Assembly: GCA_011050685.1 (NCBI GenBank)
Contig: DRFF01000130.1
Span: forward strand, 1-49,180
Length of the DNA: 49,180 bases
Direction of reading: 5' to 3'
Origin: Aurantimonas coralicida
GTDB taxonomy: Bacteria; Pseudomonadota; Alphaproteobacteria; Rhizobiales; Rhizobiaceae
How positions within the stretch are numbered: position 1 is the first letter of the stretch; the number at the start of each line of letters is the position of its first letter. The translations under genes were made by a program, and so were the position numbers. This document shows positions 5,732 through 20,302 of the stretch, piece by piece. The notes beneath the pieces were generated by a model. It was not told the origin of the DNA and did not search any database. It saw only the letters and a program-made list of their open reading frames with translations.

Positions 5732-7042
5732 TCACTTGGCCGCCGCCTCCTTGCTGCCGCAGCTCTTCGTCTCGGTGTTGTAGTTGCCGCAGTTGATCGG
5801 GTCGGTCCAATCGGCTTTCAGCATCTTGGAATCCGGCAGGAAGTCCGACCAGGCATCGCCCTCGACCAGGTCGGTCTCCTGGACGATGTCGAACTGGCCC
5901 TCCGCGTTGATCTCGCCGATCAGCACCGGCTTGGTGATGTGGTGATTGGGCAGCATCCTGGCGGTGCCGCCGGTCAGGTTCGGCACCTCGACGCCCGGCA
6001 GCGCGGCGATGACGGCGTCGGGCTCGGTCGTGCCGGCCTTTTCGACCGCCTTCACCCACATGTTGAAGCCGATGTAATGGGCTTCCATCGGATCGTTGGT
6101 CACGCGCTTGTCGTCACCGAGATAGGCCTTCCATTTCTCGATGAATTCCGCGTTTTCCGGCGTGTCGACCGACTGGAAGTAGTTCCAGGCGGCGAGGTGG
6201 CCGACCAGCGGTCCGGTGTCGATGCCGGCGAGTTCTTCCTCACCGACGGAGAAGGCGACGACGGGGATGTCGGTCGCTTCGATACCCTGATTGGCGAGTT
6301 CCTTGTAGAATGGCACGTTGGCGTCGCCGTTCACCGTCGAGACCACCGCCGTCTTCTTGCCGGTCGCGCCGAACTCCTTGATCGACGACACCTCGGTCTG
6401 CCAGTCGGAGAAGCCGAACGGCGTGTAGTTGACCTTGATGTCCTCCGCCGCGACGCCCTTGTCCTTCAGATACTGCTCGAGGATCTTGTTGGTGGTGCGC
6501 GGATAGACGTAGTCGGTGCCTTCCAGCACCCAGCGCTCGACGCCTTCTTCCATCAGATAATCGACGGCCGGGATCGCCTGCTGGTTCGGCGCGGCACCGG
6601 TGTAGAAGATATTGCGCGAGGATTCCTCGCCCTCGTACTGCACCGGATAGAACACCACCGTGTTCAGTTCCTCGGCGACCGGCAGGATCGACTTCCGCGA
6701 CACCGACGTCCAGCAGCAGAACACCGCCGCGACCTCTTCGGCCGAGACGAGGTCGCGCATCTTTTCGGCGAACAGCGGCCAGTCGGAGGCCGGGTCGACG
6801 ACGACCGCCTCGAGCGGCCGTCCGAGCAGACCGCCCTTGGCGTTCTGTTCCTCGATCAGCATCTCCATGACGTCCTTGAGGGTCGTCTCGGAGATCGCCA
6901 TCGTGCCCGACAGCGAATGCAGGACGCCGATCTTGATCGGGTCGCCGGAAGGTTTCTCCTGGGCGGTTGCGCCGGTCAGCGCCACGCTGGCCATGGTGGC
7001 CGCGGCCGCGGCGCCGCGAAGCCATGTGATGGGGGTTGTCAT
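5732..7042 (-). CDS. urtA: Urea ABC transporter substrate-binding protein UrtA
   Basis: UrtA is the periplasmic binding protein that captures urea for the UrtBCDE importer. The 436-residue product starts with a signal peptide (WLRGAAAAATMASVALTGATAQ, cleavage probably after residue 27). It then shows the family opening PIKIGVLHSLSGTMAISE and later blocks GLLGRPLEAVVVDPASDWPLFAEK and AVFCCWTSVSRKSILPV. The length and motifs separate UrtA from generic branched-chain amino acid binding proteins. It is the first gene of the operon, and a sigma-54 promoter lies about 55 bp upstream. Confidence 0.95.
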   Translation of the reverse strand: MTTPITWLRGAAAAATMASVALTGATAQEKPSGDPIKIGVLHSLSGTMAISETTLKDVMEMLIEEQNAKGGLLGRPLEAVVVDPASDWPLFAEKMRDLVSAEEVAAVFCCWTSVSRKSILPVAEELNTVVFYPVQYEGEESSRNIFYTGAAPNQQAIPAVDYLMEEGVERWVLEGTDYVYPRTTNKILEQYLKDKGVAAEDIKVNYTPFGFSDWQTEVSSIKEFGATGKKTAVVSTVNGDANVPFYKELANQGIEATDIPVVAFSVGEEELAGIDTGPLVGHLAAWNYFQSVDTPENAEFIEKWKAYLGDDKRVTNDPMEAHYIGFNMWVKAVEKAGTTEPDAVIAALPGVEVPNLTGGTARMLPNHHITKPVLIGEINAEGQFDIVQETDLVEGDAWSDFLPDSKMLKADWTDPINCGNYNTETKSCGSKEAAAK

Positions 7043-7097
7043 ACGCGCTCTCCAGTTGTTTCGCCTCCGTTGTCACCGGAGGTCACGACTGGATGGA

Positions 7098-7114
7098 TTG
7101 CAAAGCGCGTGCCA
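7098..7114 (-). promoter_or_regulatory. Sigma-54 (RpoN) promoter of the urt-ure operon
   Basis: The minus strand reads TGGCACGCGCTTTGCAA, which matches the sigma-54 consensus TGGCACG-N4-TTGCW at every fixed position, with correct spacing between the -24 GG and -12 GC elements. It lies 56 bp before the urtA start, so transcription would begin near 7088 with a short leader. This implies activation by an enhancer-binding protein such as NtrC under nitrogen limitation. No clear NtrC site was recognised upstream. Confidence 0.8.
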
Positions 7115-7266
7115 AATGCCCCCGCGGGCGATGGAAGGCGCGATCGCCCCGCTGGCGGCCCCTCCCCCAACGCGTCGAGGCAACCGCATCAGAGAAGAAT
7201 CGTCTATTTTTTAGGCTAATTCATCAGGCGCGATCAATTTCGCTATTAAATTAGGCAGCTACGGTC

Positions 7267-7398
7267 GCCGCAGATCGCATCGACGTCGGGGTCGATCTGG
7301 GTGATGTAGGAGCCGTAATCCGCGGTGTTCAGCGGCGGCCACAGCTACTGGACGACGGTGCCGCCATTCTCCTGGAACACCCGCTGGAAGCCCGAGGC
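7267..7398 (-). pseudogene. Fragment of an amino-acid-type ABC substrate-binding protein
   Basis: The minus strand encodes ASGFQRVFQENGGTVVQ, then an in-frame TAG at 7345-7347, then LWPPLNTADYGSYITQIDP and DVDAICG. This is a typical internal stretch of a periplasmic branched-chain amino acid binding protein (Peripla_BP_6 family). The stop replaces what is normally a lysine codon. Neither the N-terminal nor the C-terminal part of the gene is present. The fragment ends exactly where a transposase fragment begins, so it is debris at the edge of the island rather than a working gene. Confidence 0.65.
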
Positions 7399-7519
7399 AA
7401 TCGACGACCCGCTGACGTCGGTGTTGCGTGACGGTGCGCGCCGGCTGCTTGCCGAGGCGATCGAGGCGGAGGCCGAGGCTTTCTTGGCCGCGATGCAGGA
7501 CGAGCGCCTTGCCGATGGC
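7391..7519 (+). pseudogene. IS256-family transposase N-terminal fragment
   Basis: About 43 codons read PEAIDDPLTSVLRDGARRLL followed by AEAIEAEAEAFLAAMQDERLADG. This is the conserved N-terminus of IS256-family DDE transposases. The normal continuation (VVRHGHLPER-type) is missing, and the frame runs into unrelated sequence. The upstream end abuts the binding-protein fragment. No terminal inverted repeats were found. The remaining stretch to 7778 shows no recognisable gene. Confidence 0.7.
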
Positions 7520-7778
7520 CCGCTTCGCCATCCGGCCCGGCTTCACCGGCGCTTATGGGCCGGACGCGGAAGGTCGGCCATGGGCCGATAGCCGACCGAC
7601 AGCTCTCGAGCGCCAAACCGTCGAAGCTGCCGTCCCTAGAACTGTGTCGCCACGCTAAGCCTCGCCGACAAGGACGCCGCGTGCCACTCATTAACCGAAG
7701 GATTCACCGGCTTCGCAGATCTTTTTGGGGTTGCGGCGCGGGCGCACCCGCCTGATCTTGCCGCGGGGGGATGCTTTC

Positions 7779-10700
7779 ATGGACGTGCTGACAATGATGC
7801 CGGATCGCGCGGGCGAGCCGTCCGATAAGATGGACGGCGCGGCGGCCGTCGGGCAGTTCCTGCGCGAGGTGTCTCTCGTCGATCTCGTGGTCGAGCTCGT
7901 GCAGAACGACCTCGACGCGGGCGCGAGCCGCACTTCGATCGACTTCGGTGAGCACGGCCTCTCGTGCGAAGGGGACGGCGCGCCCCTCAACGCCAAGGCC
8001 TGGGTTAGGCTCGAGAGTGTCATTGCCGCGGGCGGGGACATCGAGGCGAAAAAGGACGGCATCGGCTCGAAGAACCACGGGCTTCGCTCGCTCTTCCTGC
8101 TCGCCGACCGGATCGGCGTTCAGTCGGACGGTCTTCGGACTGACCTCACGGTCCGTGGGAACCGGGCCCGACCTCGCAAGTTCAAGCCAGCGTTCTGGCT
8201 GCGCGAGCCCGATCCGGGTGCGCCTGCGTTCGGAACGAGGATCCTAGCGCCGTACCGGCAGTCGCCAATCAAGGTCCCGGACGGGGACAACACAACGCTG
8301 CAGCCCCTCAACGCTGCGGCGCTCGATGGGCTCTGGCGGACCGCCGTCGACGAGGCGCCGGAGCGGTTCATAGCCGCCTCGCGACCGGGTGCGCCTTGGC
8401 GCTACACCCTCAGACTCTCGCGGCATGGCCTGGGGACGGCGATCCTTACCTTCGAGTGCGCCCCCGCCGGTCCGCTTTCGAGGAGGGTGTGGCTCCGGAC
8501 CTGCCGCGTCCGCCGCGACAGCGGCTCCACGCGCACCGTTCTGAGGCGTCACGCGGTTCGCTTCCAGTGCGTCATCGACGACGGCGGCAAGATTCCGAGG
8601 CTGTTCCGCGCTGGCGGCCGCGTCTGGGGTGAACTCAACTGGAGGGTAGACCAGGCCGGGCGCCCTCTCCTCGATCGGGGCCGCCTGCGCTACCCGATCG
8701 CGTTCTCAGGGCAGGAGGCCCGCAGCGGTCACGGGTTCGACATCGCGGCTCCGTTCATCGCGGGAAGGTCGAGGCACGACATCAGTGCCGACCGCCGCAA
8801 CATGGAGTTGGTGCAACAGGCGCGCGATGCGTTCGCGGCGGCCGGGAACCTTCTCGCGCGGATGTATGGGACCCGGTCGACGGCAATGATCCGAGGACTC
8901 GAGCAGCGCGCCATGGACGCCGGGCCCGAACGTCAAATCGTTGAGCGGATGCTGGATGGCGGTGGGCTGTGCTCGGCAGTGTTCGACAAGAATGCCGTCC
9001 CCAGCGTAGCGGGGCGCCAGGTCATACCCGGTGGCACGGCGGTTATCCTGCCGGTCGCCGCGGACGGCCGTCCCCATGGTCTAGCCATGCTCGCGGGCCT
9101 CGCAGCCGGCAGCGGCGCGGTGCTCCATCCCGACACGCCCCATTGCGTGAGGGAGCATCTCGAGGGCTTGGCCAAGAAGAGCGACTTGGTCCAGCGTTTC
9201 GCCGAGCCAGACGCGGCTCGGCTGGTCTTGCTGACGCAGAGCAAGGTGGATCGGCCCAGTTCGGATGCCGCCGCGCAGCGCGCGGCGGCGGCCTTACAGG
9301 CGTTGGAGGTCGCGCGCCGCAAGGGGGCGCTACCCGCCGACCTCGTGGACGAACTGAAGGCAGATGGAGCCCTGCCAGGGTTTGACGGGCGCTTCGTAGC
9401 GTGGCGAAAGGCCCGCAGACTTGACCGGGCGCCGCCGATCATCCCCGGCGTGGCATCGCCGCCGGTCGTCCACCAAGAGGTGGTGCATTCCCCAGTGCTC
9501 AGCAGGGGCGCGCTGTTCCTCAAGCCTTTCGACCTGGGCGACTATCTCTCCGCTCTCAACTTCGATGTGGTCGGCGACCCCGTGCGCCAGCGCTTCTTCG
9601 GCTGGCTGGCCCGCAACGCTTCCCCCCTCAAGGCGGCGACGCTTCGCAAGATCGCGCAGAAGCCGGTTTGGCCGGGGGTGGATGGAGTCCATCGTCCGCT
9701 CGCGGCCTATTGCCATCCAAGGAGCCGCACGCTGCAGCGCCTGCTGGCGCTTGGCCTGGTAGCGCCGGCGCCCGCCACGCTTTCCCTCCTCGGGTCCAGG
9801 AGGCTCCCGGCTAAGTCGCCCCGCGTGCGGGCCGAGCCCACCGACCAAGAGCTCCTGGAGTGGCACGCGGCGGCCCTAGCGGCGGTGAAAGTCGAGCAGT
9901 CGCCCGAGGAAGGTCGGCGACGGCTCGACGCGCTGGAGAAGGACTTGGCCTGGGTCCTCCAGCGCCATCCGGGCGTGGCCGTGCGGATGGGATCGGCGCA
10001 CGAGACCCTCACCCAGATTGGCGAGATGATCGCCGTGTCGAAGCTGCACATTCCATCGATCGCCGCGGCGGCATGCGGGCTACCAGCCTCGGCACTGACC
10101 CGCAAGGGCGCTGCCCCTCTCTACGAGCGGCTGGGCGCCTATGCGCGGCCCACGGCGGCTGCCGTGCTGACCGCATTGAGGGATGATCCCGACCCGCAGA
10201 AGCTGTTCGTGAGACTAGAGGCGTACAAGCGGGGTTCCCGCAACCTTTCCGAGTTGGCGTCGGAAAAGGTGATTCCGGTGAACGGCACGGTGCTCGCGGG
10301 CGATGACTGCGCCTTCGTTGGTGATTCCGACTTCTGGGGCGACTGGAAGGTCGGGCTCTCCGGCGACGGGGTTGCCGACCACCACGCGCTGCTCTCGCAA
10401 CTCGGCGTGACGCGCGCGCGACCGACGAAGGATCTTGCGGTCGCCTTCTTTAGCTGGCTGTCCAGACAGCACCGAGCAGTGCAGCAGAAGCACCACGCGC
10501 AGGTCTACCGGCACTGGAAGGAGGCGTCGGGCCCGCCTGCATGGATTGCTTCGAACCAGGACATCCCCTGCATTCCGGTGACGAGCGTCGCGAAGCCCTT
10601 CGAGTTGGTGAGCCTGGCGTCCGCCATGCACCAGTCGGAGAGGATCTACCTCGACGACTTCCCCGAGGTGAGGGAGAAGGCGCTCGCCGATGGAAAGCTC

Positions 10701-11867
10701 AGGTTGACCCTAATCAAGGCGCCTGGAACGCGGTCCACGATCCTCGACCTAGTGGCCGGTGTCGGGGTGCGCTCGCTTCGCGGCGCGTTCGGGCCCCCTC
10801 GGACTGTCGGCGGCAGCGGAGCGCTCGAGCTCGTCGGCGACCTCGGGCTTGAGCTGTCTCAGCTGCAGACCAGGAAGCAGCTCGCCGAGCTCCGCTCACG
10901 GCTGCCGCTCAACGGGGTAGCCATCGCCGACCTGCGGCCTGAGTGGCAGAAGATGCTCAAGGCGATCAGCGGGGTGAGGTCCCGCCCCGAACTCCGGGCC
11001 GTCTACCGGCTGCATGGCCAGGACTTCGAGGTGCCTGTGCGCAGCGGGATCGACCGCGATTCCGGTTTTATCCTCGTGGGGAGTGATTCCGACAAGCTCC
11101 ACGAGATGTACGAGGTGCTGGCGGAGCATCTGTTCAAGTCTGGGCGATCGAACGCCTGGGGCCTCATGCGAGCCGCGCGCGACAAGCGCCAGCTTGAATT
11201 TCTTGCCACGGGCATGGAAGAGCCTGAGGACGACGAGGAGGGCGAGGAGGACGGAGATCCAAAGAATACCGGCGGCGACGTGGACAAAGGGCACGGCCTC
11301 TCGGCGGCGAAGCTCAAGCCGGTCGTGCCGGATCCCAAGCCGCTCCCGCAGATCACGGATCCGACGCGGGTCCCTCGCGAGCGCCGCTCGATTCCCAAGG
11401 CGCGCAGTCAGTCTCAGGCGACCCAGTCGCTCGAGGAGGAGGATCAGAAGCGCGCCTTGAAGCGGGAGCATTATGGCTATCACTGTCAGGCGTGCATCGG
11501 GGACATGGACGTGCTGAAGGCGGCGCCGCCAGGGACGTACGTTTTCGCTCCCGGTTACCGGCAGAGGCTCATCCAGGCGCACCATGTGCAGCATCGCCAG
11601 AACGGCGGCGGCGTCGGCGCGGGCAACCTCGTGGTCCTCTGCGAGTATCATCATCGGCTTTGGGGCGACCGGATGGCCCGCGGCCCGGTTCTGGCGGCCT
11701 TGGCGAATGCGACGCCGCTCAAGCGTGCGTTCCCTACGGACGCGGCAGGCGATGTGCTGGAGACCCAGGCCGGTCTGCTCGCCAAGGTGCCTCTTTCGGC
11801 CGAACCGTTCGAGGCGCGTCTCTTTTTCACCGCCGAGCACGCCGCCGCTTGGAAGGCGAGCCAGTGA
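7779..11867 (+). CDS. Large GHKL-ATPase / HNH-nuclease fusion protein
   Basis: The 1362-residue product is not a named protein I recognise. Residues 30-115 look like a GHKL (HATPase) fold of the sacsin/MORC kind. The N-box is VELVQNDLDAGA (E39, N43, D46), a degenerate second box is EGDGAP (64-69), and a glycine-rich lid is KKDGIGSKNHGLRS (91-104). Roughly residues 250-1130 are uncharacterised and probably act as a sensor or scaffold. An acidic linker follows near 1150-1165. The C-terminus is an HNH nuclease module: C1236-x2-C1239, AHH (H1268, H1269), N1283, C1288 and H1291-H1292. The ATG at 7779 is preceded by GGGGGA; an in-frame ATG lies 54 bp upstream without such a site. The gene stands alone between gene wrecks on a mobile island. 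ATP-gated DNA cutting in phage or plasmid defence is an inference from architecture and context. Confidence 0.8.
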   Translation: MDVLTMMPDRAGEPSDKMDGAAAVGQFLREVSLVDLVVELVQNDLDAGASRTSIDFGEHGLSCEGDGAPLNAKAWVRLESVIAAGGDIEAKKDGIGSKNHGLRSLFLLADRIGVQSDGLRTDLTVRGNRARPRKFKPAFWLREPDPGAPAFGTRILAPYRQSPIKVPDGDNTTLQPLNAAALDGLWRTAVDEAPERFIAASRPGAPWRYTLRLSRHGLGTAILTFECAPAGPLSRRVWLRTCRVRRDSGSTRTVLRRHAVRFQCVIDDGGKIPRLFRAGGRVWGELNWRVDQAGRPLLDRGRLRYPIAFSGQEARSGHGFDIAAPFIAGRSRHDISADRRNMELVQQARDAFAAAGNLLARMYGTRSTAMIRGLEQRAMDAGPERQIVERMLDGGGLCSAVFDKNAVPSVAGRQVIPGGTAVILPVAADGRPHGLAMLAGLAAGSGAVLHPDTPHCVREHLEGLAKKSDLVQRFAEPDAARLVLLTQSKVDRPSSDAAAQRAAAALQALEVARRKGALPADLVDELKADGALPGFDGRFVAWRKARRLDRAPPIIPGVASPPVVHQEVVHSPVLSRGALFLKPFDLGDYLSALNFDVVGDPVRQRFFGWLARNASPLKAATLRKIAQKPVWPGVDGVHRPLAAYCHPRSRTLQRLLALGLVAPAPATLSLLGSRRLPAKSPRVRAEPTDQELLEWHAAALAAVKVEQSPEEGRRRLDALEKDLAWVLQRHPGVAVRMGSAHETLTQIGEMIAVSKLHIPSIAAAACGLPASALTRKGAAPLYERLGAYARPTAAAVLTALRDDPDPQKLFVRLEAYKRGSRNLSELASEKVIPVNGTVLAGDDCAFVGDSDFWGDWKVGLSGDGVADHHALLSQLGVTRARPTKDLAVAFFSWLSRQHRAVQQKHHAQVYRHWKEASGPPAWIASNQDIPCIPVTSVAKPFELVSLASAMHQSERIYLDDFPEVREKALADGKLRLTLIKAPGTRSTILDLVAGVGVRSLRGAFGPPRTVGGSGALELVGDLGLELSQLQTRKQLAELRSRLPLNGVAIADLRPEWQKMLKAISGVRSRPELRAVYRLHGQDFEVPVRSGIDRDSGFILVGSDSDKLHEMYEVLAEHLFKSGRSNAWGLMRAARDKRQLEFLATGMEEPEDDEEGEEDGDPKNTGGDVDKGHGLSAAKLKPVVPDPKPLPQITDPTRVPRERRSIPKARSQSQATQSLEEEDQKRALKREHYGYHCQACIGDMDVLKAAPPGTYVFAPGYRQRLIQAHHVQHRQNGGGVGAGNLVVLCEYHHRLWGDRMARGPVLAALANATPLKRAFPTDAAGDVLETQAGLLAKVPLSAEPFEARLFFTAEHAAAWKASQ

Positions 11868-12203
11868 GGCCAGCGCAGACCTCTTGCTAATTCGAGAGGA
11901 ACTCGGCGCGAGTTCGAACGAATGGGGCCTTCAGGATCAGCGAAGCTCACCGCGAACGACCGCAATGGGCGCGTTGCCGTCTGGCTGCTTATTTGACGAG
12001 AGCGGGGCGGAATCGGTCTGGCAGGTTTCAAGCGCCGGTGCTGGAAGGCGGCCATTTGGGCTCCGGCAAATCTCCCCGTTCCCAAGCCGTTAACGGTTTA
12101 GTGAGAGCGGTCGTTCGTAGCCGTCCTAACTGTCGGACGCGGTCGGCATCGGGCTGGCCGGGAGGTGATAATAGATACGCTTTGGCAGCATGTGAGTTCA
12201 TTC
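11868..12203 (+). other. Gene-free stretch after the GHKL-HNH gene
   Basis: No reading frame in these 336 bases resembles a known protein on either strand, and no terminator with a U-run was found. It probably consists of decayed mobile DNA. Confidence 0.5.
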
Positions 12204-12600
12204 TCAACTGCCGCTTTTGCTAGACGATCGCGACAACGCAATGCGATCGGAGCCGGGCACAAATCGGTCTGGTTGAGCTTTTTGGGCGATGCACACGAGG
12301 TCGACAAGCGCCGAACGGAGAAAGGGCCAGGGGAACTCCGGACATTCAGCAGAGCTTTCTCCCTCGCGTAAGATGACATCGAGCTTGCCCCGCAACGCCG
12401 GCAAGGGATGTGGCAGATGCACTCATCAGCGCATCTGCCAGCTGTTGTTCGCGGAAGGCTGCAGCCTCTTCGGCCTCTTTGGCGGCGGAGTATCCCAACT
12501 CGCCATCTGCGCCATCCCAGCGAGCTTGGTGTGCCGTGTGAGCTCGACTTCCGCGATTGCCCACGTCGCGGCCATCGCCGGATCGCCGCCGAAGGTCTCT
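12204..12600 (-). pseudogene. Frameshifted remnant of a small plasmid-type hypothetical gene
   Basis: Three minus-strand frames can be joined into one plausible protein. The first reads DPAMAATWAIAEVELTRHTK, the second DGELGYSAAKEAEEAAAFRE followed by QQLADALMSASATSLAGVAG, and the third KLDVILREGESSAECPEFPW followed by PFLRSALVDLV. The blocks ATSLAGVAGKL and EFPWPFLRSAL resemble small hypothetical proteins of alphaproteobacterial plasmids and phages. At least two frameshifts separate them, so the gene looks dead. Its 5' end meets the relaxase fragment. The function is unknown. Confidence 0.45.
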
Positions 12601-13469
12601 TCGATCTGATCACGGGTATGCACGAAGATCGATCTGCCCTCGTCAGGCAGATCGACCCGGCGCGGGATTACGCCGAACGGCGTGGCATCACCTTCCGCGC
12701 CCGAGTTGCCGAGATCGTGCGTAAGGTCGTGCCGGAAAAAGTGCGCGGCATGTTCGACGGTATGCGACTGCCCGCCGATGGCGAACAGGGGCCGGAACGG
12801 GCAGCGCCGTCGCCGGGCGCTGGCGAAGCGCAGGGGCCGGTACGGGAAAGCGCTGCGGCAAAGGTCCGGCGAACGACGGATGCGCCGGAAAGAGCCGCGG
12901 CGGCGGACCCGGACGAAGCGCTGCGCAAGGCCCGCACCAAGGCGCTCATCCGCCATGCCCGCGCGTTGGATGTGATCCTCGCTACTGGGGATGCGGACGG
13001 TAGAGGCAGTCCTGCGCAGGTGCGCGAACTGACGGACGCCCGCAAACCCTTCGAGAAAGTACGTCCCCTCAGCTGGCGCGATGCCGAAGCCGCCTACGCC
13101 AAGAACCCGGAACTCACTCACGAGGCAGCGACGGGTCGAGTCAACCGCGCCATCCGGGCGCTCCAGCTTGAAACCGAAATCCGCACCGATCCCAGCCGCC
13201 GCGCCGACCGCTTTGTCGAGCGCTGGCAGAAGCTCGACCGCGCCAGCCAGCATCAATACCAGGCGGGCGATATGTCCGGCTACAAGGCCACCCGGTCGGC
13301 AATGGGCGACATGGCCAAGAGCCTCGAACGCGATCCGCAGATGGAATCCCTGCTCGCTAATCGCAAGGCAGCCCTCGGCATCGACATGGAGGCTGGCCGC
13401 CGACTCGGCGCGGCCCTCGCCCTCTCTCACGGTCTCGACCTCGGCAGAGGGCGCGGACTTGGGCTGTAA
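12594..13469 (+). pseudogene. traA: C-terminal part of a TraA-type conjugative relaxase
   Basis: The frame reads GLFDLITGMHEDRSALVRQ, then DPARDYAERRGITFRARVAE, IVRKVVPEKVRGMFDGMRLP and near the end FVERWQKLDRASQHQYQAGD, MSGYKATRSAMGDMAKSLER and DPQMESLLANRKAALGID. This is the C-terminal third of the Ti-type TraA relaxase/helicase of alphaproteobacterial plasmids. A complete TraA has about 1000 residues or more; the relaxase and helicase domains are absent here, leaving about 290 codons. The open frame continues upstream to 12408 but there it is only antisense to another remnant. Without the N-terminus it cannot nick DNA, so it marks a past plasmid or ICE integration. Confidence 0.7.
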
Positions 13470-13597
13470 TCTTTCCTATTTGCCGCCGTTTCCATCCGGC
13501 GCCGCGACGATTCTCCGAACCCTCTTGCGCCCCGGCAAGGGCCTGTCCTGACTGGACAAAGAGCCGTCAGAAACCGCCAGCCGGAGGCATCGCATCC

Positions 13598-13804
13598 ATG
13601 CCCGCGCCAGACCGTATCGTCCGCCTCAACACCGTCCTCGCCCGGACGGGCCTGTCCCGGTCCACCATCTATCGAAAGATCGCTGAGAGTACGTTCCCGG
13701 CCCAGATCAGAATCAGCATCAACGGTGCCGGGTGGCGAGAATCCGACATCGATCGCTGGATCGAAGATCCCGTATCGTGGAGGCCGGGAGCAGGAGGCCG
13801 GTGA
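13598..13804 (+). CDS. AlpA-family DNA-binding regulator
   Basis: The 68-residue product is a winged-helix, excisionase-like regulator. It contains LNTVLARTGLSRSTIYRKIA (helix-turn-helix), the block FPAQIRIS where most AlpA proteins have FP-x-P, and WRESDIDRWIE, the conserved end of the AlpA/MerR-like fold. CCGGAGG lies about ten bases before the ATG. Such proteins activate or restrain excision of integrated elements. The stop overlaps the next start by one base, and the serine recombinase lies 950 bp downstream, so a role in controlling this element is likely. Confidence 0.8.
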   Translation: MPAPDRIVRLNTVLARTGLSRSTIYRKIAESTFPAQIRISINGAGWRESDIDRWIEDPVSWRPGAGGR

Positions 13805-14043
13805 TGGCCGATGACGAGCGGCGCTTCGGTAGAGAGAGACCGGCAAACGACAATCGCGCGCCGGCCGGTCAGGATACGGAGGGCGATGCCGAAGCTCTCG
13901 AGCGGCTGGACACGGTGGTGCTATCGATTGCTCGGCTGATCGGCAGGCGGATGGCGCGCGAGGACTACGAGAAAGCCATGCGCGCCGCCAATGACAATTC
14001 GCCGCCCGACGCGGGCGACGATGGCGGAGACGACAAGGCATGA
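13804..14043 (+). CDS. Small recombinase-associated hypothetical protein
   Basis: This 79-residue acidic protein has no named domain. It shows two Asn-rich tags, RPANDNRAP and RAANDNSPP, around a helical core that includes RLDTVVLSIARLIGRRMARE. Similar short proteins accompany AlpA and serine recombinases in alphaproteobacterial elements, as far as I recall. The start overlaps the alpA-like stop (TGATG), so translation is probably coupled. The function is unknown. Confidence 0.6.
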   Translation: MADDERRFGRERPANDNRAPAGQDTEGDAEALERLDTVVLSIARLIGRRMAREDYEKAMRAANDNSPPDAGDDGGDDKA

Positions 14044-14106
14044 ACGGACCGTCGCAACGATATACGCACCGAGGCGGCCTATTCCCTTCCCCTGCACCGC
14101 AACACA

Positions 14107-14127
14107 TGATATGCATGAGGTATATCA
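14107..14127. promoter_or_regulatory. Inverted repeat before vapBC, probable autoregulatory operator
   Basis: TGATAT (14107-14112) and ATATCA (14122-14127) form a perfect six-base inverted repeat with a nine-base spacer, ending 12 bases before the likely vapB start. Ribbon-helix-helix antitoxins usually bind such palindromes at their own promoter. No experiment supports it. Confidence 0.45.
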
Positions 14128-14139
14128 ATGGAGAGTGCG

Positions 14140-14355
14140 ATGCGAGCCCTTGTCGATATGAATGATGCGCAGATCGAAGCCCTCGATAGCCTTGCCAAGC
14201 GGGTGCGCCAATCCCGTGCCGCACTTATCCGGGCGGCGATAGACGATTATCTTGGCCGCCATCACCGCGAACAGGTCGAGGACGGCTTCGGCCTGTGGGG
14301 CAAGCGCAAGGTCGATGGTCTGGCCTATCAGGAAAAGGCGCGTAGCGAATGGTAG
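14140..14355 (+). CDS. VapB-type ribbon-helix-helix antitoxin
   Basis: The 71-residue product begins MRALVDMNDAQIEALDSLAK and continues RVRQSRAALIRAAIDDYLGR, a ribbon-helix-helix (CopG/Arc-like) DNA-binding domain. The tail DGFGLWGKRKVDGLAYQEKARSEW would wrap the toxin. The ATG at 14140 is preferred because GGAG sits six bases before it; an ATG at 14128 would add four residues and has no such site. The gene overlaps vapC by seven bases, the usual toxin-antitoxin arrangement. Confidence 0.8.
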   Translation: MRALVDMNDAQIEALDSLAKRVRQSRAALIRAAIDDYLGRHHREQVEDGFGLWGKRKVDGLAYQEKARSEW

Positions 14356-14714
14356 GCGCGCTTTTCGATACCAATATCCTCATCGACCACCTGAACGCGA
14401 TCCCGCAGGCCCGTGAGGAAATCGAGCTCTTTGAAAACCGGGCCATCAGTATCATCACCTGGATGGAGGTGATGGTGGGGGCGAACGCCGATCTGGTCGA
14501 ACCGACCCGGCATTTTCTCGAGGGTTTCAATGTCATCGCCCTGGACGATGAGATTGCCAACCGCGCGGTGGAATTGCGGCGTGCGCATCGCATCAAGCTA
14601 CCCGACGCAGTGATCTGGGCCACGGCGCAGACTGCCGGACGCCTGCTTGTGACCCGAAACACCAAGGATTTTTCATCCGACGATCCGGGGGTGCGCGAAC
14701 CCTATACCCTGTAG
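14349..14714 (+). CDS. VapC-type PIN-domain toxin
   Basis: The 121-residue product is a PIN-domain ribonuclease toxin. The acidic catalytic residues can be placed at D7 (ALFDTNILID), E40 (ITWMEVMVGA), D86 (KLPDAVIWATA) and D107 (RNTKDF), so the active site is complete. VapC enzymes cleave tRNA or rRNA and are neutralised by the cognate VapB. It overlaps the antitoxin gene and lies 35 bp before the recombinase, so the pair probably stabilises the element. Confidence 0.85.
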   Translation: MVGALFDTNILIDHLNAIPQAREEIELFENRAISIITWMEVMVGANADLVEPTRHFLEGFNVIALDDEIANRAVELRRAHRIKLPDAVIWATAQTAGRLLVTRNTKDFSSDDPGVREPYTL

Positions 14715-14749
14715 GGGAACGCGCCCAGCCCGAACCACAGGAGGCCACC

Positions 14750-16423
14750 ATGTCCCGCGCAGCCCTTTACGCCCGCTATTCATCCGACAACCAGAGCAAG
14801 GCGTCCATCGAGGACCAGTTTCGCCTGTGTCGGGAACATGCGCAGCGGGAGCGATGGGAGATTGTCGGCTCCTACGAGGATGCGGCCATATCGGGATCGA
14901 GCACGATCCTGCGACCGGGCATCCAGAGGCTCATGCGCGATGCGCAGCACGGCGAGTTCAACATCCTGCTGGCCGAGGCACTGGATCGGATCAGCCGCGA
15001 TCAGGCTGATGTCGCCACGCTCTACAAGCAGTTGAAGTTCGCGGGCGTCACCATCGTGACGCTGGCCGAAGGCGAGATCAGCGAGCTTCATGTCGGCCTG
15101 AAAGGCACGATGAACGCCCTGTTCCTGAAGGACCTCGCCATGAAGACCCATCGCGGACTGCGCGGGCGGGTCGAGAAGGGCAAGGCGGGCGGCGGCCTCT
15201 GCTATGGCTACAGGGTGGTGAAGAAGCTCGACGCCAACGGCGAGCCGATCCGGGGCGACCGCGAGATCGTCCCGGAAGAAGCGGAGATCGTGCGGCGCGT
15301 CTTGCGCGAGTTTGCAGCGGGCAAACCTCCCAAGGCCATTGCCGTCGATCTGAACAAGGCTGACATTCCAGGCCCACTCGGGCGAGCATGGGGCGATACC
15401 AGCATTCGGGGTCACCGCACACGCGGCACCGGCATCGTCAATAACGAGCTTTATGCAGGCGTTCTGGTCTGGAACCGCCTGCGCTTTGTCAAAGACCCCA
15501 GCACAGGCAAGCGTGTCTCGCGACCGAACCCGGAATCCGAATGGATCAGGGTCGAGGTTCCGCATCTTCGGATCGTAGATGATGCACTTTGCAACGCGGT
15601 GCGCGAGCGGCAAAGGCAGATCGCCGAAATTTTCGGGCCGAACCCGGCCAACACCCGCGAGGGCAGGGCAAAGCGTCTGCACTTGGCGAACCGGCCTGTT
15701 TCTCTCCTTTCCGGTCTTCTGACTTGCAGTTGCTGCAGCGGGAAGATTGGCATTATTCTCTCCGACCGGCTCGGCTGCCTGAATCATCACCGGCGCGGCA
15801 CCTGCACTAACAACCGCACCATCTTGCGCAAGAAGCTGGAGGCGCGGGTGCTGGCCGGGTTACAGGACAGGCTGGTTTCGGCCGAGGCGGTCGAGGAGGC
15901 CATGCGTGCCTATGTCGAGGAAACCAACCGGCTGAACCATCAGCGCCGTGCCCAGCACGAAACCGACCGCCGCGCGTTGGCGAAGATCGGGCGTGCCATT
16001 GCCGGGATCATCTCGGCCGTTGAGGACGGTATGTATCAACCGTCGATGAAGGCGCGGATGGACGAATTGGAACGGCAGAAGACCGAAATCACCGCCCGCA
16101 TGGCGGAAGCCGCTGCCGATGTGCCGGATGTTCATCCCAATATCGCGTCGAACTATCGCCGCAACGTCGCGCGCTTCGCCGAAGCTCTGAACGATCCCGA
16201 TGGGGGCAGGCAGGCCGCGGAGGCTCTGCGCTCATTGATTGGCGAGGTGATCGTTACCCCTGGAGAGAAGCGTGGCGAGGTTCATGCCGAGCTACGCGGC
16301 GAGTTGATGGGTATCCTTGGCGTTGCCAAGGCCGAGGAAGGAAGGGCGCCGGGCATCCCTTTTATGACAGCGGTTGAAGCGAACCCCCGCAACCAAAAAA
16401 CAAACGCATTCTCAGTGATTTAA
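14750..16423 (+). CDS. Large serine recombinase (site-specific integrase)
   Basis: The 557-residue product has a resolvase-type catalytic domain at residues 1-150 (LYARYSSDNQSKASIEDQ, nucleophile S11 or S12; later DRISRDQADVATLYKQLK). It is followed by a recombinase domain (GLCYGYRVVKK to about residue 290) and a zinc ribbon at about 326-350 (CSCCSGKIG with CLNHHRRGTC). A helical or coiled-coil tail completes it. This is the layout of large serine integrases of phages and integrative elements. AGGAGG precedes the ATG. Nothing indicates truncation, so the enzyme may be active and would have inserted the island. Flanking att sites were not resolved by eye. Confidence 0.92.
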   Translation: MSRAALYARYSSDNQSKASIEDQFRLCREHAQRERWEIVGSYEDAAISGSSTILRPGIQRLMRDAQHGEFNILLAEALDRISRDQADVATLYKQLKFAGVTIVTLAEGEISELHVGLKGTMNALFLKDLAMKTHRGLRGRVEKGKAGGGLCYGYRVVKKLDANGEPIRGDREIVPEEAEIVRRVLREFAAGKPPKAIAVDLNKADIPGPLGRAWGDTSIRGHRTRGTGIVNNELYAGVLVWNRLRFVKDPSTGKRVSRPNPESEWIRVEVPHLRIVDDALCNAVRERQRQIAEIFGPNPANTREGRAKRLHLANRPVSLLSGLLTCSCCSGKIGIILSDRLGCLNHHRRGTCTNNRTILRKKLEARVLAGLQDRLVSAEAVEEAMRAYVEETNRLNHQRRAQHETDRRALAKIGRAIAGIISAVEDGMYQPSMKARMDELERQKTEITARMAEAAADVPDVHPNIASNYRRNVARFAEALNDPDGGRQAAEALRSLIGEVIVTPGEKRGEVHAELRGELMGILGVAKAEEGRAPGIPFMTAVEANPRNQKTNAFSVI

Positions 16424-16448
16424 AAGGCGTCCTCCGGGGCGCCTTTTT
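16423..16448 (+). terminator. Rho-independent terminator after the serine recombinase
   Basis: AAAGGCG and CGCCTTT form a seven-base stem around a ten-base loop, followed by a short T-run. The stem starts at the last base of the recombinase stop codon. Confidence 0.75.
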
Positions 16449-16863
16449 GCGTTCGCGCGCACCTTAGCAAGCGCGCAAGGTTGCCCGCTGCCAGCAGAAA
16501 TCCGACGCCATGATCATCGACGAGGACGCACAAGCGCGACGAGCGTTCGACCCGGAACCCGCGACCCGGTGCAGGAGGTCACGGTGCAGATGGCCCGCCG
16601 GAGCGGCACACGACATCGGTACCCGGTTCCGCCGGCCGTAAGCATGGTTTAGGACTACATCGTTCCGCCGCGAGCGGCAGTTCGTTCCGATGGGACGGAT
16701 TGGCGTCCACTTCCTCCTTCCTGTCTTGCCCCGACGGCGAGATCGTTCCTCGTACCTTGTCCGATATGACCGTATTCCGCACGATGAAGAGAACCGCACG
16801 CCGCCGGACACCGCATGCCGGCGACGGCTTTGGCCCGCCCGACCGCGGCACTTCCGCGAACGG
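16449..16863. other. Gene-free stretch at the right side of the island
   Basis: No recognisable gene, repeat or RNA was seen in these 415 bases. Open frames exist on both strands but encode Arg-rich sequence without family resemblance. The right attachment site of the element could lie here. Confidence 0.4.
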
Positions 16864-17970
16864 ATGTCGATGAGCGCGATACGCGATTGGCTGGCCAAAG
16901 CCCTGGAGCCTCTCGCTCCGAAGCGCTTTGCCTATGCGCGCTTCGCGCTGGCGCTCGGGATCGGGCTTCTCGGCGCCGTCGTCTTCCTGCGTCTGTCGCT
17001 GCCGCTGCCCTGGATGCTCGGGCCGCTGGCGGCGTGCCTCCTCGCCTCGCTCCTGCGAATGCCGGTTACCGCGCCCACAATCCTGCGACCTCCCATGACC
17101 ATGCTCGTCGGGGTGCTGCTGGGAGCAGGCTTTACGCCGGGTATGGTGACCGGGATAGCGGATTGGCTTCCGAGCCTCCTCGGCCTGATGGTCTTCCTCT
17201 TCGTCGCGGCGGCGGCCTGTGTCACCTATTTCTACCGCGTCGCCGGTTTCGATCTGCCCACAGCCTATTTCGCCGGCATGCCCGGCGGCCTGATCGAGAT
17301 GGTGACGCTCGGCCAAGCCAAGGGCGGCGATCCGCGGATCATCGCCCTGATCCATTCCAGCCGCATCATGCTGATCGTCTTCTCGCTGCCGTTCGTCCTC
17401 GACGTGGTGACCGGCGAACAGGTGATCACACGACCGACGACCGGGCTGTCCATCTTCGACGCGCCATGGACGGTGGAAGCATGGCTGGTTCTGACAGGGC
17501 TGGTCGGGATCGTCCTGGGACGAATACTGCGACTGCCCGCGCCCTATCTGATGGGGCCGATGCTGGCCAGCGGCGCGGTGCATTTGACCGGGATCACGGA
17601 GTTCCGCCCGCCCTACGAGCTGGTGGCGGCCGCGCAGTTGGTGCTCGGCACCGCCCTCGGCTGCCGGTTTGCCGGAACCCGGTTGACCGAACTCGCGCGG
17701 ATTCTTGGGCTCGCACTGGGATCGACCGCCATCTTGCTGTCGATCACGCTCGGCTTTTCGCTGGGATTGAACCGGCTGATCGGTTTGCCGGTCCTCGACC
17801 TGCTGCTGGCCTATTCCCCCGGCGGCCTGACCGAAACGAGCCTGATCGCGCTAGCCCTCCATGTCGAGGTGGCTTTTGTCGCGACCCATCACGTCACCCG
17901 GGTTTTCCTGGTGATGACCACGGCGGGTCTGGTGTTCCGCCTGGTTGACAAATTTCGCGGGCCGAGCTGA
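16864..17970 (+). CDS. AbrB-family (COG3180) membrane permease
   Basis: The 368-residue product has about ten hydrophobic segments in two repeats. Marker blocks are LPLPWMLGPLAACLLASLL and FAGMPGGLIEMVTLGQAKGG in the first half, and LPAPYLMGPMLASGAVHLTG and LAYSPGGLTETSLIALAL in the second. This pattern defines the AbrB/COG3180 family, often misnamed as transcriptional regulators. The family is thought to contain ammonia-monooxygenase-like or organic acid permeases, and the substrate here is unknown. The start MSMSAIRDWLAK was chosen because upstream codons are Arg-rich and unlike the family. It precedes an alcohol dehydrogenase in the same direction. Confidence 0.8.
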   Translation: MSMSAIRDWLAKALEPLAPKRFAYARFALALGIGLLGAVVFLRLSLPLPWMLGPLAACLLASLLRMPVTAPTILRPPMTMLVGVLLGAGFTPGMVTGIADWLPSLLGLMVFLFVAAAACVTYFYRVAGFDLPTAYFAGMPGGLIEMVTLGQAKGGDPRIIALIHSSRIMLIVFSLPFVLDVVTGEQVITRPTTGLSIFDAPWTVEAWLVLTGLVGIVLGRILRLPAPYLMGPMLASGAVHLTGITEFRPPYELVAAAQLVLGTALGCRFAGTRLTELARILGLALGSTAILLSITLGFSLGLNRLIGLPVLDLLLAYSPGGLTETSLIALALHVEVAFVATHHVTRVFLVMTTAGLVFRLVDKFRGPS

Positions 17971-18097
17971 CGGCAAGGCTCATCCCGCACGCGCTGCAAA
18001 AGGGAGCACCGGTGCGCATGGCTGGGCGAACGGCTCGTTCCGCGCCAGACTGGCGGCTACGATTCGACAACGAGACGAAAACGGGAAAGATCTCGCC

Positions 18098-19258
18098 ATG
18101 ACGCCCTTCCTCTTCAACACCACGCCGTCGATCGTGTTCGAGCCGGGCGCGGCCAGGCGGCTGGGGCCGATCGCGGCGAAGACGCTCGGCGCGCGCGTGT
18201 TGCTGGTCACCGACCCCGGCCTCCGCGCGCTCGGCCTCTGCGACCCGGCGATCGCCTCGCTGGCCGAGTCCGGCGCCGCCGTTACCATCTTCGACGACGT
18301 CGCGGCCGATCCCAAACTGTCGATTCTGGAGGCCGCGACCGACGCCGCCCGCACGGCGGATGCCACCGGCATTGTCGGCTTCGGCGGTGGCTCGTCCCTT
18401 GACGTGGCCAAGCTCGTCGCGCTCATCGCCGGCTCCGGCGAGGACCTTGATGCCGCCTGGGGGGTCGGCAACGCCAAGGGTCCCCGCCTGCCACTGGTGC
18501 TGGTGCCGACCACCGCCGGCACCGGCTCGGAGGTGACGCCGGTCTCGATCATCACTGTCGGCGAGGAGGAAAAGCGCGGCGTTTCCTCGGCGCTGATCGT
18601 GCCGGATATCGCCGTGCTCGACGCCGAATTGACCCTCGGCCTGCCGCCGGCGATTACCGCCGCCACCGGCGTCGACGCCATGGTCCACGCGATCGAGGCC
18701 TATGCGTCGAAGAACGCCAACAACAACCCACTGTCGAAGATGCTGGCGCGCGAAGCCTTGCGGCTTATCGGCGCGAATATCGAAGCGGTGATCGCCGAAC
18801 CGGCCAATGTCGCGGCGCGCGGGGCGATGCTGCTCGGCTCGATGCTCGCCGGCCAGGCCTTCGCCAATTCGCCGGTCGCCGCCGTCCACGCCCTCGCCTA
18901 CCCGATCGGCGGCACCTTCCATATTCCGCACGGCCTGTCGAACGCACTGGTGCTGCCGCATGTGCTGCGCTTCAACGCCCCCTACGCGGCGCATCTTTAC
19001 GCCGAAATCGCCGCCGACGCCTTTCCAGCCCTAGAACGCGAGGAAAGCACGCAAGGCCGCTGTGCCGCCTTCGTAGAGGAACTCGCCGCGCTGTCAGAGC
19101 GCCTCGGCCTGCCGCCGCGCCTGCGCGATGTCGGGATCGGCGAGGAGCATCTGGCCAAGATGGCGGCCGACGCGATGAAGCAGCAGCGCCTTTTGGTCAA
19201 CAATCCGCGCGCGGTCTCGGAATCCGACGCGCTGTCGATCTACCGGTCGGCCTGGTAA
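18098..19258 (+). CDS. Iron-containing alcohol dehydrogenase
   Basis: The 386-residue cytoplasmic NAD(P)-dependent oxidoreductase has the group III iron-ADH layout. It opens with FNTTPSIVFEPGA, followed by the dinucleotide site GFGGGSSLDVAKL, the block PTTAGTGSEVTPVS, and metal-ligand regions DAMVHAIEAYAS, AVHALAYPIGG and FHIPHG. The length is typical. ATG at 18098 follows GGGAAAGA; the longer frame upstream lacks similarity. The substrate cannot be read from the sequence. It lies after the AbrB permease and faces the hydroxyproline operon convergently with a 15 bp gap. Confidence 0.9.
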   Translation: MTPFLFNTTPSIVFEPGAARRLGPIAAKTLGARVLLVTDPGLRALGLCDPAIASLAESGAAVTIFDDVAADPKLSILEAATDAARTADATGIVGFGGGSSLDVAKLVALIAGSGEDLDAAWGVGNAKGPRLPLVLVPTTAGTGSEVTPVSIITVGEEEKRGVSSALIVPDIAVLDAELTLGLPPAITAATGVDAMVHAIEAYASKNANNNPLSKMLAREALRLIGANIEAVIAEPANVAARGAMLLGSMLAGQAFANSPVAAVHALAYPIGGTFHIPHGLSNALVLPHVLRFNAPYAAHLYAEIAADAFPALEREESTQGRCAAFVEELAALSERLGLPPRLRDVGIGEEHLAKMAADAMKQQRLLVNNPRAVSESDALSIYRSAW

Positions 19259-19273
19259 GGCGCCGGCGGGCCG

Positions 19274-20302
19274 TCAGCCGCCGGGCCAGGTGTCGGACAA
19301 CCGATATCCGCCAGGCCATGGATCGGATGGATCGAGCATCAGTTGCGTCGTTCCGGTGATCCAGGCGCGCCCGGAGATCGACGGGATAATGGCCGGCCGG
19401 TCACCCACCGTCGTCAGGCTCTCGATGCGGCAGTGGAATTGCGATCCGGTGACCGACTGCCCGACAAAGGCGTCTCCGGCCTGCATCTCACCGCGCGCGT
19501 TCAGCACCGCCATGCGGGCGGAACAGCCGGTTCCGGTGGGCGATCGGTCGAGCTTGCCGGGGCGGATCGCGACCGTGTTTCGGCCAGCTAGGATGCCGTT
19601 CTCCCGCGTCACCGGTTCGGTGAACTGGCAGAAGGAGATATGGTCCCACTCTCCGTTCTGGGGATGCCGAAAGCCGATCTGTTCGTTGGCGGCGCGGGTG
19701 ATCCTCATGCCGGCTTCGGCCAGCGCTACCGCGTTTGCCGGGCTGATTTCAAGACCGGCCTCAGCGGCGTCGACGAGCACGAAGCTGTCGCCGCCATAGG
19801 CCGTATCGACGGTCAACGTGCCCAGCCCCTCGACCTCAAGCTTGACGCCAAGGCGATCGGCGAAGGACGGCACGTTGGTGACCGTGATGCGCTCCGCCTT
19901 GCCATCCATGCAATCGGCGGCGATCTCCACCAGCCCGCCCGGCGCTTCCAGCCGGAAGCGGGCGACCGGTTCGCTCATCGGCACGATCCCGCTGTCGAGA
20001 AGAACTGTGGCAACGCAGATCGCGTTGCTCCCCGACATCGGCGGCGTATCGGCCGGCTCCATGATGATGAAGCCCATCGCGGCCTCGGGGTGCTTCGGCG
20101 GCACCAGCAGATTGACATGGCGGAAGACGCCGCCCCTCGGTTCGTTGAGGACGAAATTGCGCAATTCGCCGTCAGTCGCCACGTAGCGGGATTGCTCCCA
20201 GAGCGTGTTGCCCGGCGGCGGCGCCACGCCGCCGACGATGACATCGCCGACCTCGCCTTCCGCGTGGCAGCCGACGATGTGGACGAGTTTGGAGCTGCGC
20301 AT
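19274..20302 (-). CDS. Proline racemase-fold protein, trans-3-hydroxyproline dehydratase-like
   Basis: The 342-residue product belongs to the proline racemase superfamily. In racemases and 4-hydroxyproline epimerases two cysteines act as acid and base. Here the equivalent positions are S90 ([10 protein letters not shown]) and T256 ([13 protein letters not shown]). A threonine at the second position is the hallmark of trans-3-hydroxy-L-proline dehydratases, which remove water instead of epimerising; the serine at the first position is a further change. The opening [19 protein letters not shown] supports this subgroup. It is the last gene of the hydroxyproline operon, four bases after the enolase-superfamily gene. 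Dehydratase function is likely but not certain. Confidence 0.75.

Follow-up and report, generated by a model that had tools for sequence, protein, structure and literature searches.

The window, a stretch of 49,180 nucleotides from Aurantimonas coralicida, carries one intact reading frame at 7779-11867 (+) that encodes a 1362-residue protein with a GHKL-type domain at its N-terminus and an HNH module at its C-terminus. The two domains are retained as one unit across phyla. Because the family is rare, jumps between phyla and often lies near known anti-phage genes, the window protein probably serves, as the product of a single gene that spreads horizontally, in defence against phages or other DNA entering the cell. 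A first-pass annotation had read a GHKL-type domain and a complete HNH module in one polypeptide of this length, and the modelled fold and the conservation of the N-box, lid and HNH residues bear this out. The gene and its parts are as follows:

7779..11867, + strand: single gene for the sacsin-type GHKL/HNH protein, 1362 residues, stop codon included (reading frame, homologues)
7833..8876, + strand: GHKL fold plus transducer module, residues 19-366, with N-box E39/N43/D46 and lid K91-G101
8877..11198, + strand: middle region, residues 367-1140 (27-31% mean pairwise identity)
11199..11423, + strand: acidic linker, residues 1141-1215 (ten-residue pLDDT means of 27-37; 22% mean pairwise identity)
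11424..11678, + strand: HNH module, residues 1216-1300 (C1236, C1239, H1268-H1269, N1283, C1288, H1291-H1292; PHROG, Pfam and residue conservation)
11679..11864, + strand: C-terminal tail, residues 1301-1362, with F1350-T1351, H1354 and W1358 invariant (homologue comparison)

Structure prediction, proposed earlier as a check on the N-terminus, gave the N half a GHKL fold and a transducer, at a pLDDT of 80.5. This Bergerat fold and transducer place the family in the GHKL superfamily at the level of the predicted fold only, and a competent ATPase is not claimed. The best solved structural match was human sacsin SR1, followed by MORC, GyrB and Hsp90, with a lead of less than 1 Z, i.e. tied. E39, N43 and D46 of the N-box (ExxxN) and G96 and G101 of the glycine lid are present in 11/11 aligned sequences. 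In motif II (DxGxG) of GHKL ATPases, the Asp contacts adenine; this canonical residue was found in 0/11 aligned sequences, all of which have G65 at its position, followed by D in five and N in six, and then by G67 in 11/11. Nucleotide use by the family therefore remains putative. TmtA-type proteins carry N, G-N or H at the same position.

The missing motif-II Asp and the rank of sacsin SR1 would suit a sacsin-like chaperone in which the HNH serves as a zinc-bound structural element and has no nuclease activity, but this is very improbable in view of the HNH itself: its CxxC, HH, N and CxxHH residues are retained in 11/11 aligned sequences (H1268 in 10/11), and it is the best conserved of the segments compared (49% mean pairwise identity). 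PHROG HNH families matched the window protein at E values of 2.6e-4 and 3.3e-4, and Pfam HNH and HNH_2 matched three (best E 7.7e-4) and two of the 11 members, respectively. In the predicted structure the HNH region has low pLDDT and zero strands, and the beta-beta-alpha metal fold is not visible. The window protein had no Pfam match (E<=1) and no PADLOC match (0 families at E<=1, PADLOC 2.0.0), and PHROGs and NCBIfam matched it at its ends only. The C-terminal part of the middle region matched no solved fold; the middle region is probably the sensor or target-recognition part.

Thirteen relatives were found: 10 are full length, two have the HNH part on a separate contig of the same genome, and one is broken; both ends thus lie in one frame in 10/13. 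They are labelled with about six phyla, and some of these host labels may be wrong because the relatives come mostly from metagenome bins. The 11 full-length sequences, used for alignment and tree, all carry the HNH at the C-terminus, and the N-box, lid and HNH residues vary little or not at all among relatives. Neither Alphaproteobacteria nor Actinomycetota holds together in the tree of these 11: each is divided by sets with full support. The family is rare, sparsely distributed and horizontally transferred between bacterial phyla.

The window copy sits among mobile remnants; the transposase and traA remnants and the large serine recombinase around it agree with the mobile setting proposed in the first-pass annotation:

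7391..7500, + strand: transposase remnant upstream of the gene (81% DNA match to G007:C19)
12408..13469, + strand: 3' remnant of the relaxase gene traA (NCBIfam NF010464, E 4.2e-86)
13598..13804, + strand: AlpA-type regulator (PF05930, E 1.3e-16)
14128..14714, + strand: RHH protein and PIN protein pair, toxin-antitoxin-like (PF01402, E 2.8e-7; PF01850, E 2.6e-15)
14750..16423, + strand: large serine recombinase (PF00239, E 1.7e-26; PF07508, E 1e-18; phrog_95 integrase, E 7e-89)

We take the transposase remnant to be IS256-like; Pfam found no match in the window frame 7325-7588, and longer transposase-like frames are read in G007:C19. The traA remnant scored 289.8 bits against NF010464 (cut-off 1015), covering profile positions 729-992 of 992, and matches a Paracoccus traA at the DNA level. 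A role in DNA maintenance or repair for mobile elements or the host, as a MutL-like ATPase plus nuclease and not in immunity, would fit this setting and the locus L019, a conjugative element by eye. MutL likewise joins GHKL and nuclease, and the matches in PDB sequence searches were to MutL/PMS1, none of them significant. Such a role is nevertheless improbable given the very sparse distribution, the horizontal spread and the immune genes among the neighbours, which occur at between 4 and 7 of the 11 loci.

The search for these neighbours reached 10 kb from the gene and took in those relatives whose flanks could be read, 11 of 13. PADLOC-type genes occur in 7/11, or in 4/11 without three weaker cases; the first-pass annotation had proposed scoring defence islands in this way as a check. 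The stronger cases are type I restriction-modification genes at L008 (HsdM/S/R) and L014 (HsdR/S/M plus PDC-S35), CBASS at L009 and DarTG at L015; the weaker are a Tmn match covering half the protein (L007), a lone C5 methyltransferase adjoining an integrase (L013) and a lone PtuA-like ATPase (L016). At E<=1e-20, 164 PADLOC families were matched in 109 neighbour genes, compared with 58 in a control set of 128 genes from these genomes; the control set also matched PD-T4-6, mad3, mad6, MkoA and others, among the matches listed (25 of 58 families), and the contrast is therefore as much in kind as in number. When 20 neighbours picked by eye were scored singly, 18 matched at E<=1e-6. L012, L017, L018 and L019 were scanned in the pooled search alone, with 25 of 164 families among the matches listed; L017 and L018 are metabolic-looking by eye.

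No partner recurs: in 12 loci with 124 neighbour genes, HsdM/S/R are the only ones shared, by two loci, in keeping with the earlier proposal that no partner gene is needed. A suicidal variant of the system, in which the clamp responds to infection and the HNH then degrades host DNA (or RNA), so that cell death stops the phage, would agree with the lack of a recurring methyltransferase or other self-marking partner among these neighbours, and some of them (CBASS phospholipase, DarT) belong to systems that act abortively. This variant is unlikely, however, since the available text of PMC2292703 links MORC and paraMORC genes to loci of restriction-modification systems, and the present data do not point to any one target. 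In the favoured reading, that of a defence against phages or other invading DNA, the N-terminal GHKL/transducer clamp would join two chains and shut when nucleotide binds, as it does in Hsp90, MutL and MORC; the invader or its DNA would be recognised by the large, divergent middle; and the shut clamp would release or place the C-terminal HNH, on its flexible acidic linker, for DNA cutting.

The overall plan, a GHKL clamp and a nuclease in one gene, has a precedent in at least one system that has been tested. VcSduA, a GHKL-type Shedu (type I-D; formerly paraMORC3), is likewise a single-gene GHKL ATPase with a C-terminal nuclease and is experimentally anti-phage; as far as the available text of PMC12137116 goes, either E27A (ATPase) or K557A (nuclease) abolishes defence, and its GHKL has motifs I-IV, whereas the window protein family lacks the canonical motif-II Asp. 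The VcSduA nuclease is a PD-(D/E)xK DUF4263, unlike the HNH found here, and VcSduA is probably much shorter, because its nuclease Lys is residue 557. The window protein was rejected as Shedu: it has no Pfam match at E<=1, and DUF4263 is absent from the nine families matched by the 11 members.

Septu (PtuAB), named in the first-pass annotation, also combines an ATPase and an HNH, but proved a poor comparison: in the accessible descriptions PtuA and the PtuB HNH are on two genes, whereas the window protein is one polypeptide. The Septu ATPase belongs to another class than GHKL. With one polypeptide and no PADLOC match, Septu was ruled out. Bacterial MORC and paraMORC pair GHKL with an S5 module in restriction-modification loci; as excerpted from PMC2292703, they lie mostly in operons with helicases, methylases or endonucleases, unlike the present family without recurring partner, and HNH genes of their own may accompany paraMORC1, and paraMORC3 carries a fused RE-fold nuclease where the present family has an HNH. 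Human sacsin, unlike the 1362-residue window protein with its HNH, is of giant size and contains Hsp90-like repeats, DnaJ and HEPN; the available part of PMC3710099 names no HNH in it.

Tiamat (TmtA) is likewise one large gene with an N-terminal sacsin-type GHKL plus transducer and a C-terminal nuclease-type domain. Tiamat reportedly protects against phage, in work by Millman from 2022. Several of its single-gene sacsin-type proteins are annotated with a C-terminal DUF3883, and the haloarchaeal (Halorubrum) TmtA WP_008580622.1 ends in an HNH, as here; with these proteins and VcSduA (as described in PMC12137116), the earlier remark that no named defence system of exactly this layout was known proved too strong. 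Profile comparison (hhalign) of the N-terminal module with TmtA gave a probability of 98.1 and a score of 103.7, against 20.1 for the reversed and 12.6-16.0 for five shuffled profiles, pointing to homology of the two GHKL/transducer modules. The middle region scored 27.4 (nulls 11.8-18.5) at 1.0 percent probability, and detectable sharing thus appears limited to the N-terminal module. The window protein matched no TmtA model (PADLOC, E<=1); seven relatives scanned singly stayed at or below 15.6 bits, with the match lying in the GHKL part, and the best E among the 11 aligned sequences was 7.5e-4, whereas the best scores for six TmtA-type proteins ranged from 219.9 to 1283.9 bits. Identity with Tiamat was rejected, as no match to a TmtA model spans most of the length.

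The family may plausibly be an undescribed, phylum-spanning one-protein immune nuclease. In that reading its sacsin-type clamp, whose nucleotide pocket is altered, would drive an HNH cutter acquired separately from the DUF3883 and PD-(D/E)xK versions, and its large sensor region would be its own; together with TmtA and VcSduA, the family would form a modular class in which a GHKL clamp is combined with interchangeable nucleases. If so, the same Hsp90/sacsin-like clamp was placed before unrelated nucleases more than once to give self-contained immune proteins, the general question of how such a GHKL clamp detects a phage and switches the nuclease tethered to it becomes testable, and a family is added whose window protein went unmatched in Pfam and PADLOC 2.0.0. 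As a separate observation, one TmtA example lies directly upstream of qatABCD.

The reading frame of P0001, the sacsin-type GHKL/HNH protein of the window, is unbroken from 7779 to 11867 on the forward strand and encodes 1362 aa, and all residues named in the first-pass annotation are present at their places; an alternative in-frame TTG lies 54 bases upstream of the ATG at 7779, which was taken there as the start. The window is a complete contig from a 4.86 Mb genome that shares its genus with G006, a genome with Aurantimonas manganoxydans SI85-9A1 as its main contig. In library scans, P0001 was recognisable at both ends, but not as a whole protein: no Pfam family matched at E<=1, and no PADLOC family matched. 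The NCBIfam sacsin N-terminal ATP-binding-like domain covered residues 36-113 (E 3.1e-7; 30.8 bits, under the cut-off of 50), PHROGs HNH endonucleases matched the C-terminus (best E 2.6e-4), and NCBIfam IscB matched 1260-1298 (E 0.013, far under its own cut-off). PDB sequence searches gave MutL N-box matches for P0001 (E 0.7-0.85), PMS1 for an N-half profile (E 0.89), and only unrelated chains for a C-half profile (E 0.19-0.95).

As sole query, P0001 found no relatives in the genome collection. A two-sequence profile of P0001 and a relative from the same genus (L002/L013 of A. manganoxydans, 37-39% identity), run over 205 stretches matching a peptide pattern, revealed 13 loci; the family thus has at least 13 relatives, because the pattern step passes over those lacking the chosen peptides. 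Hosts among the Proteobacteria are Caulobacterales, Rhodospirillaceae, another alphaproteobacterial bin, a gammaproteobacterial bin, and A. manganoxydans; the others are Acidimicrobiaceae, SAR202, another Chloroflexi bin, Acidobacteria, Thermoleophilia, Latescibacterota, Spartobacteria, and an unclassified bacterium. Ten of the 13 are full length in a single frame. The L012 and L017 genes end at contig edges, and in both genomes the profile matched the missing part, HNH columns included, on another contig. L011:1930-4077 has an in-frame stop on a contig that ends early, and is a decayed or mis-assembled copy. Four partly overlapping genome samples, each including the genome of P0001 itself, gave 2/60 positives (the other being G006), 2/397 (a spurious antisense match), 2/385 (the L018 gene), and 2/398 (a weak HNH-only match). 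This is a real family, undescribed in the literature as far as searched.

Among 11 aligned sequences, mean pairwise identity was 0.40 in the GHKL and transducer region (47/348 positions invariant) and 0.49 in the HNH (18/85 invariant); it was 0.27 and 0.31 in two segments of the middle region, 0.22 in the linker, and 0.28 in the C-terminal tail. Conserved ends and a variable middle are the pattern expected of a sensor between engine and cutter, and the middle may have that role. In motif II of GHKL proteins, an Asp contacts adenine. This position is Gly65 in all 11 sequences, followed by D66 (five) or N66 (six) and then G67; therefore, ATP use by the family is only putative. TmtA-type proteins (TmtA being the PADLOC protein of Tiamat) have N or H at the place aligned with Gly65.

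The family follows a known kind of plan, resembling those of TmtA and VcSduA. VcSduA is an anti-phage protein with an N-terminal GHKL and a DUF4263 nuclease, whose defence is abolished by E27A and likewise by K557A (PMC12137116). In restriction-modification loci, Iyer and others (2008) described families named MORC and paraMORC; paraMORC3 carries an RE-fold nuclease fused to it, and paraMORC1 has adjacent HNH genes (PMC2292703). Profile comparison with controls showed that the N-terminal module is homologous between the P0001 family and TmtA, whereas no homology was detectable in the middle region; the family is therefore like TmtA and VcSduA in plan, yet on the features tested it belongs to none of TmtA, Shedu, and Septu. 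Of six TmtA-type proteins taken into an alignment and a scan, WP_008580622.1 (Halorubrum hochsteinianum; TmtA 7-1395, E 2.8e-170; HNH 1427-1556, E 4.4e-14) is a second sacsin-type ATPase-HNH fusion. BLASTP of P0001 against it gave weak co-linear matches in the GHKL (3e-4), the transducer end (0.01), and the HNH (0.014), the remainder being at chance level.

This haloarchaeal plasmid protein (L065:7815-12500, NZ_CP098416.1) is annotated solely as an HNH endonuclease; about 3.6 kb upstream of it is a gene for a cytosine DNA methyltransferase. TmtA-type L022, as tblastn query, matched 29 plasmid records, with DUF3883 annotated under the match in 13. L066:4953-7973 (Sulfuricurvum kujiense plasmid pSULKU01), a TmtA-type DUF3883 protein, has qatABCD directly downstream and a NERD-domain gene upstream. 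The PADLOC TmtA model PDLC03972 matched at E<=0.001 in 17/40 related and 7/14 control genomes, mostly Hsp90-sized frames, so a score cut-off is needed before a Tiamat call.

Flanks were readable in 11 of the 13 relatives (the L010 and L011 contigs are too short), with gene lists from a simple frame caller that include some artefact frames. Twenty neighbour proteins picked by eye were run against PADLOC one at a time; matches at E<=1e-6 came from 18 of them, the exceptions being L009:15274-16641 and L015:11-514.

PADLOC matches of neighbours, by locus
L007: Tmn (E 5.5e-78, 46-657 of 1215; additional to the 18, from the pooled scan of neighbour genes)
L008: HsdM, HsdS, HsdR
L009: two cyclases, phospholipase effector, E1-E2, capP
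L013: C5 methyltransferase
L014: HsdR, HsdS, HsdM, PDC-S35
L015: DarG, DarT, partial REase_II, PDC-S02 match
L016: PtuA-like ATPase

Defence-type neighbours were thus present at 7 of the 11 relatives (4 without the weaker L007, L013, and L016). By eye, L012, L017, and L018 showed nothing clear. Also by eye, L016 has an MNT/HEPN-like pair, and L019 a relaxase, coupling protein, ParA, and integrase. At E<=1e-20, 109 neighbour genes matched 164 PADLOC families against 58 for 128 control genes (nine 20-kb stretches, 9 of the 11 genomes), a rough contrast because redundant models inflate both counts. Of the families listed, the 25 from neighbours are components of type I RM, one type II methyltransferase, cyclases, and PDC-M11A, whereas the 25 from controls are PD-T4-6, mad3, mad6, C3a189, PDC-M72A, and MkoA. 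Across 124 neighbour genes at 12 loci including the window (blastp E<=1e-5), only HsdM/S/R of L008 and L014 were alike between loci. No obligate partner gene was seen, in agreement with the earlier proposal that none is needed. Gene context and analogy make an immune function likely; the mechanism is a proposal and unproven. At L009, the 1010-aa frame 16593-19622 has a C-terminal CD-NTase cyclase match (728-1008) and an N part that looks ATPase-like by eye; if the frame is real, it is an unusual ATPase-like/cyclase fusion. A separate second CBASS cyclase lies a few kb away.

In the tree, P0001 groups with A. manganoxydans and Caulobacterales; the other two alphaproteobacteria, Latescibacterota, and Thermoleophilia form one fully supported set, and Acidimicrobiaceae groups with the two Chloroflexota. 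Bins may have been assigned to the wrong hosts, but A. manganoxydans is a named isolate. The two Aurantimonas copies share about 38% identity and no neighbour genes.

Window features, left to right
periplasmic binding protein (PF13433), conserved in the genus
transposase remnant
7779-11867, forward strand, P0001 gene
traA remnant
AlpA
RHH-PIN
large serine recombinase

The name attached to PF13433 is that of a urea transporter. Left-flank DNA matches stop at about 7059-7282, and right-flank matches start at about 16535 and 16595 (two relatives); no simple empty site was found, because the flanks lie on separate contigs in G002 and G005. Nine plasmid records matched window 7000-17000 at the DNA level, none including the P0001 gene. 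The best two are Paracoccus plasmids, one matching 13072-16317 (75.8% identity, two pieces, 25% of query) and the other 13899-16321 (83.3%, 17% of query). The stretch 13072-16321, from the traA remnant to the serine recombinase, is thus 76-83% identical to these plasmids, and looks like a recombinase element inserted into a conjugation gene.
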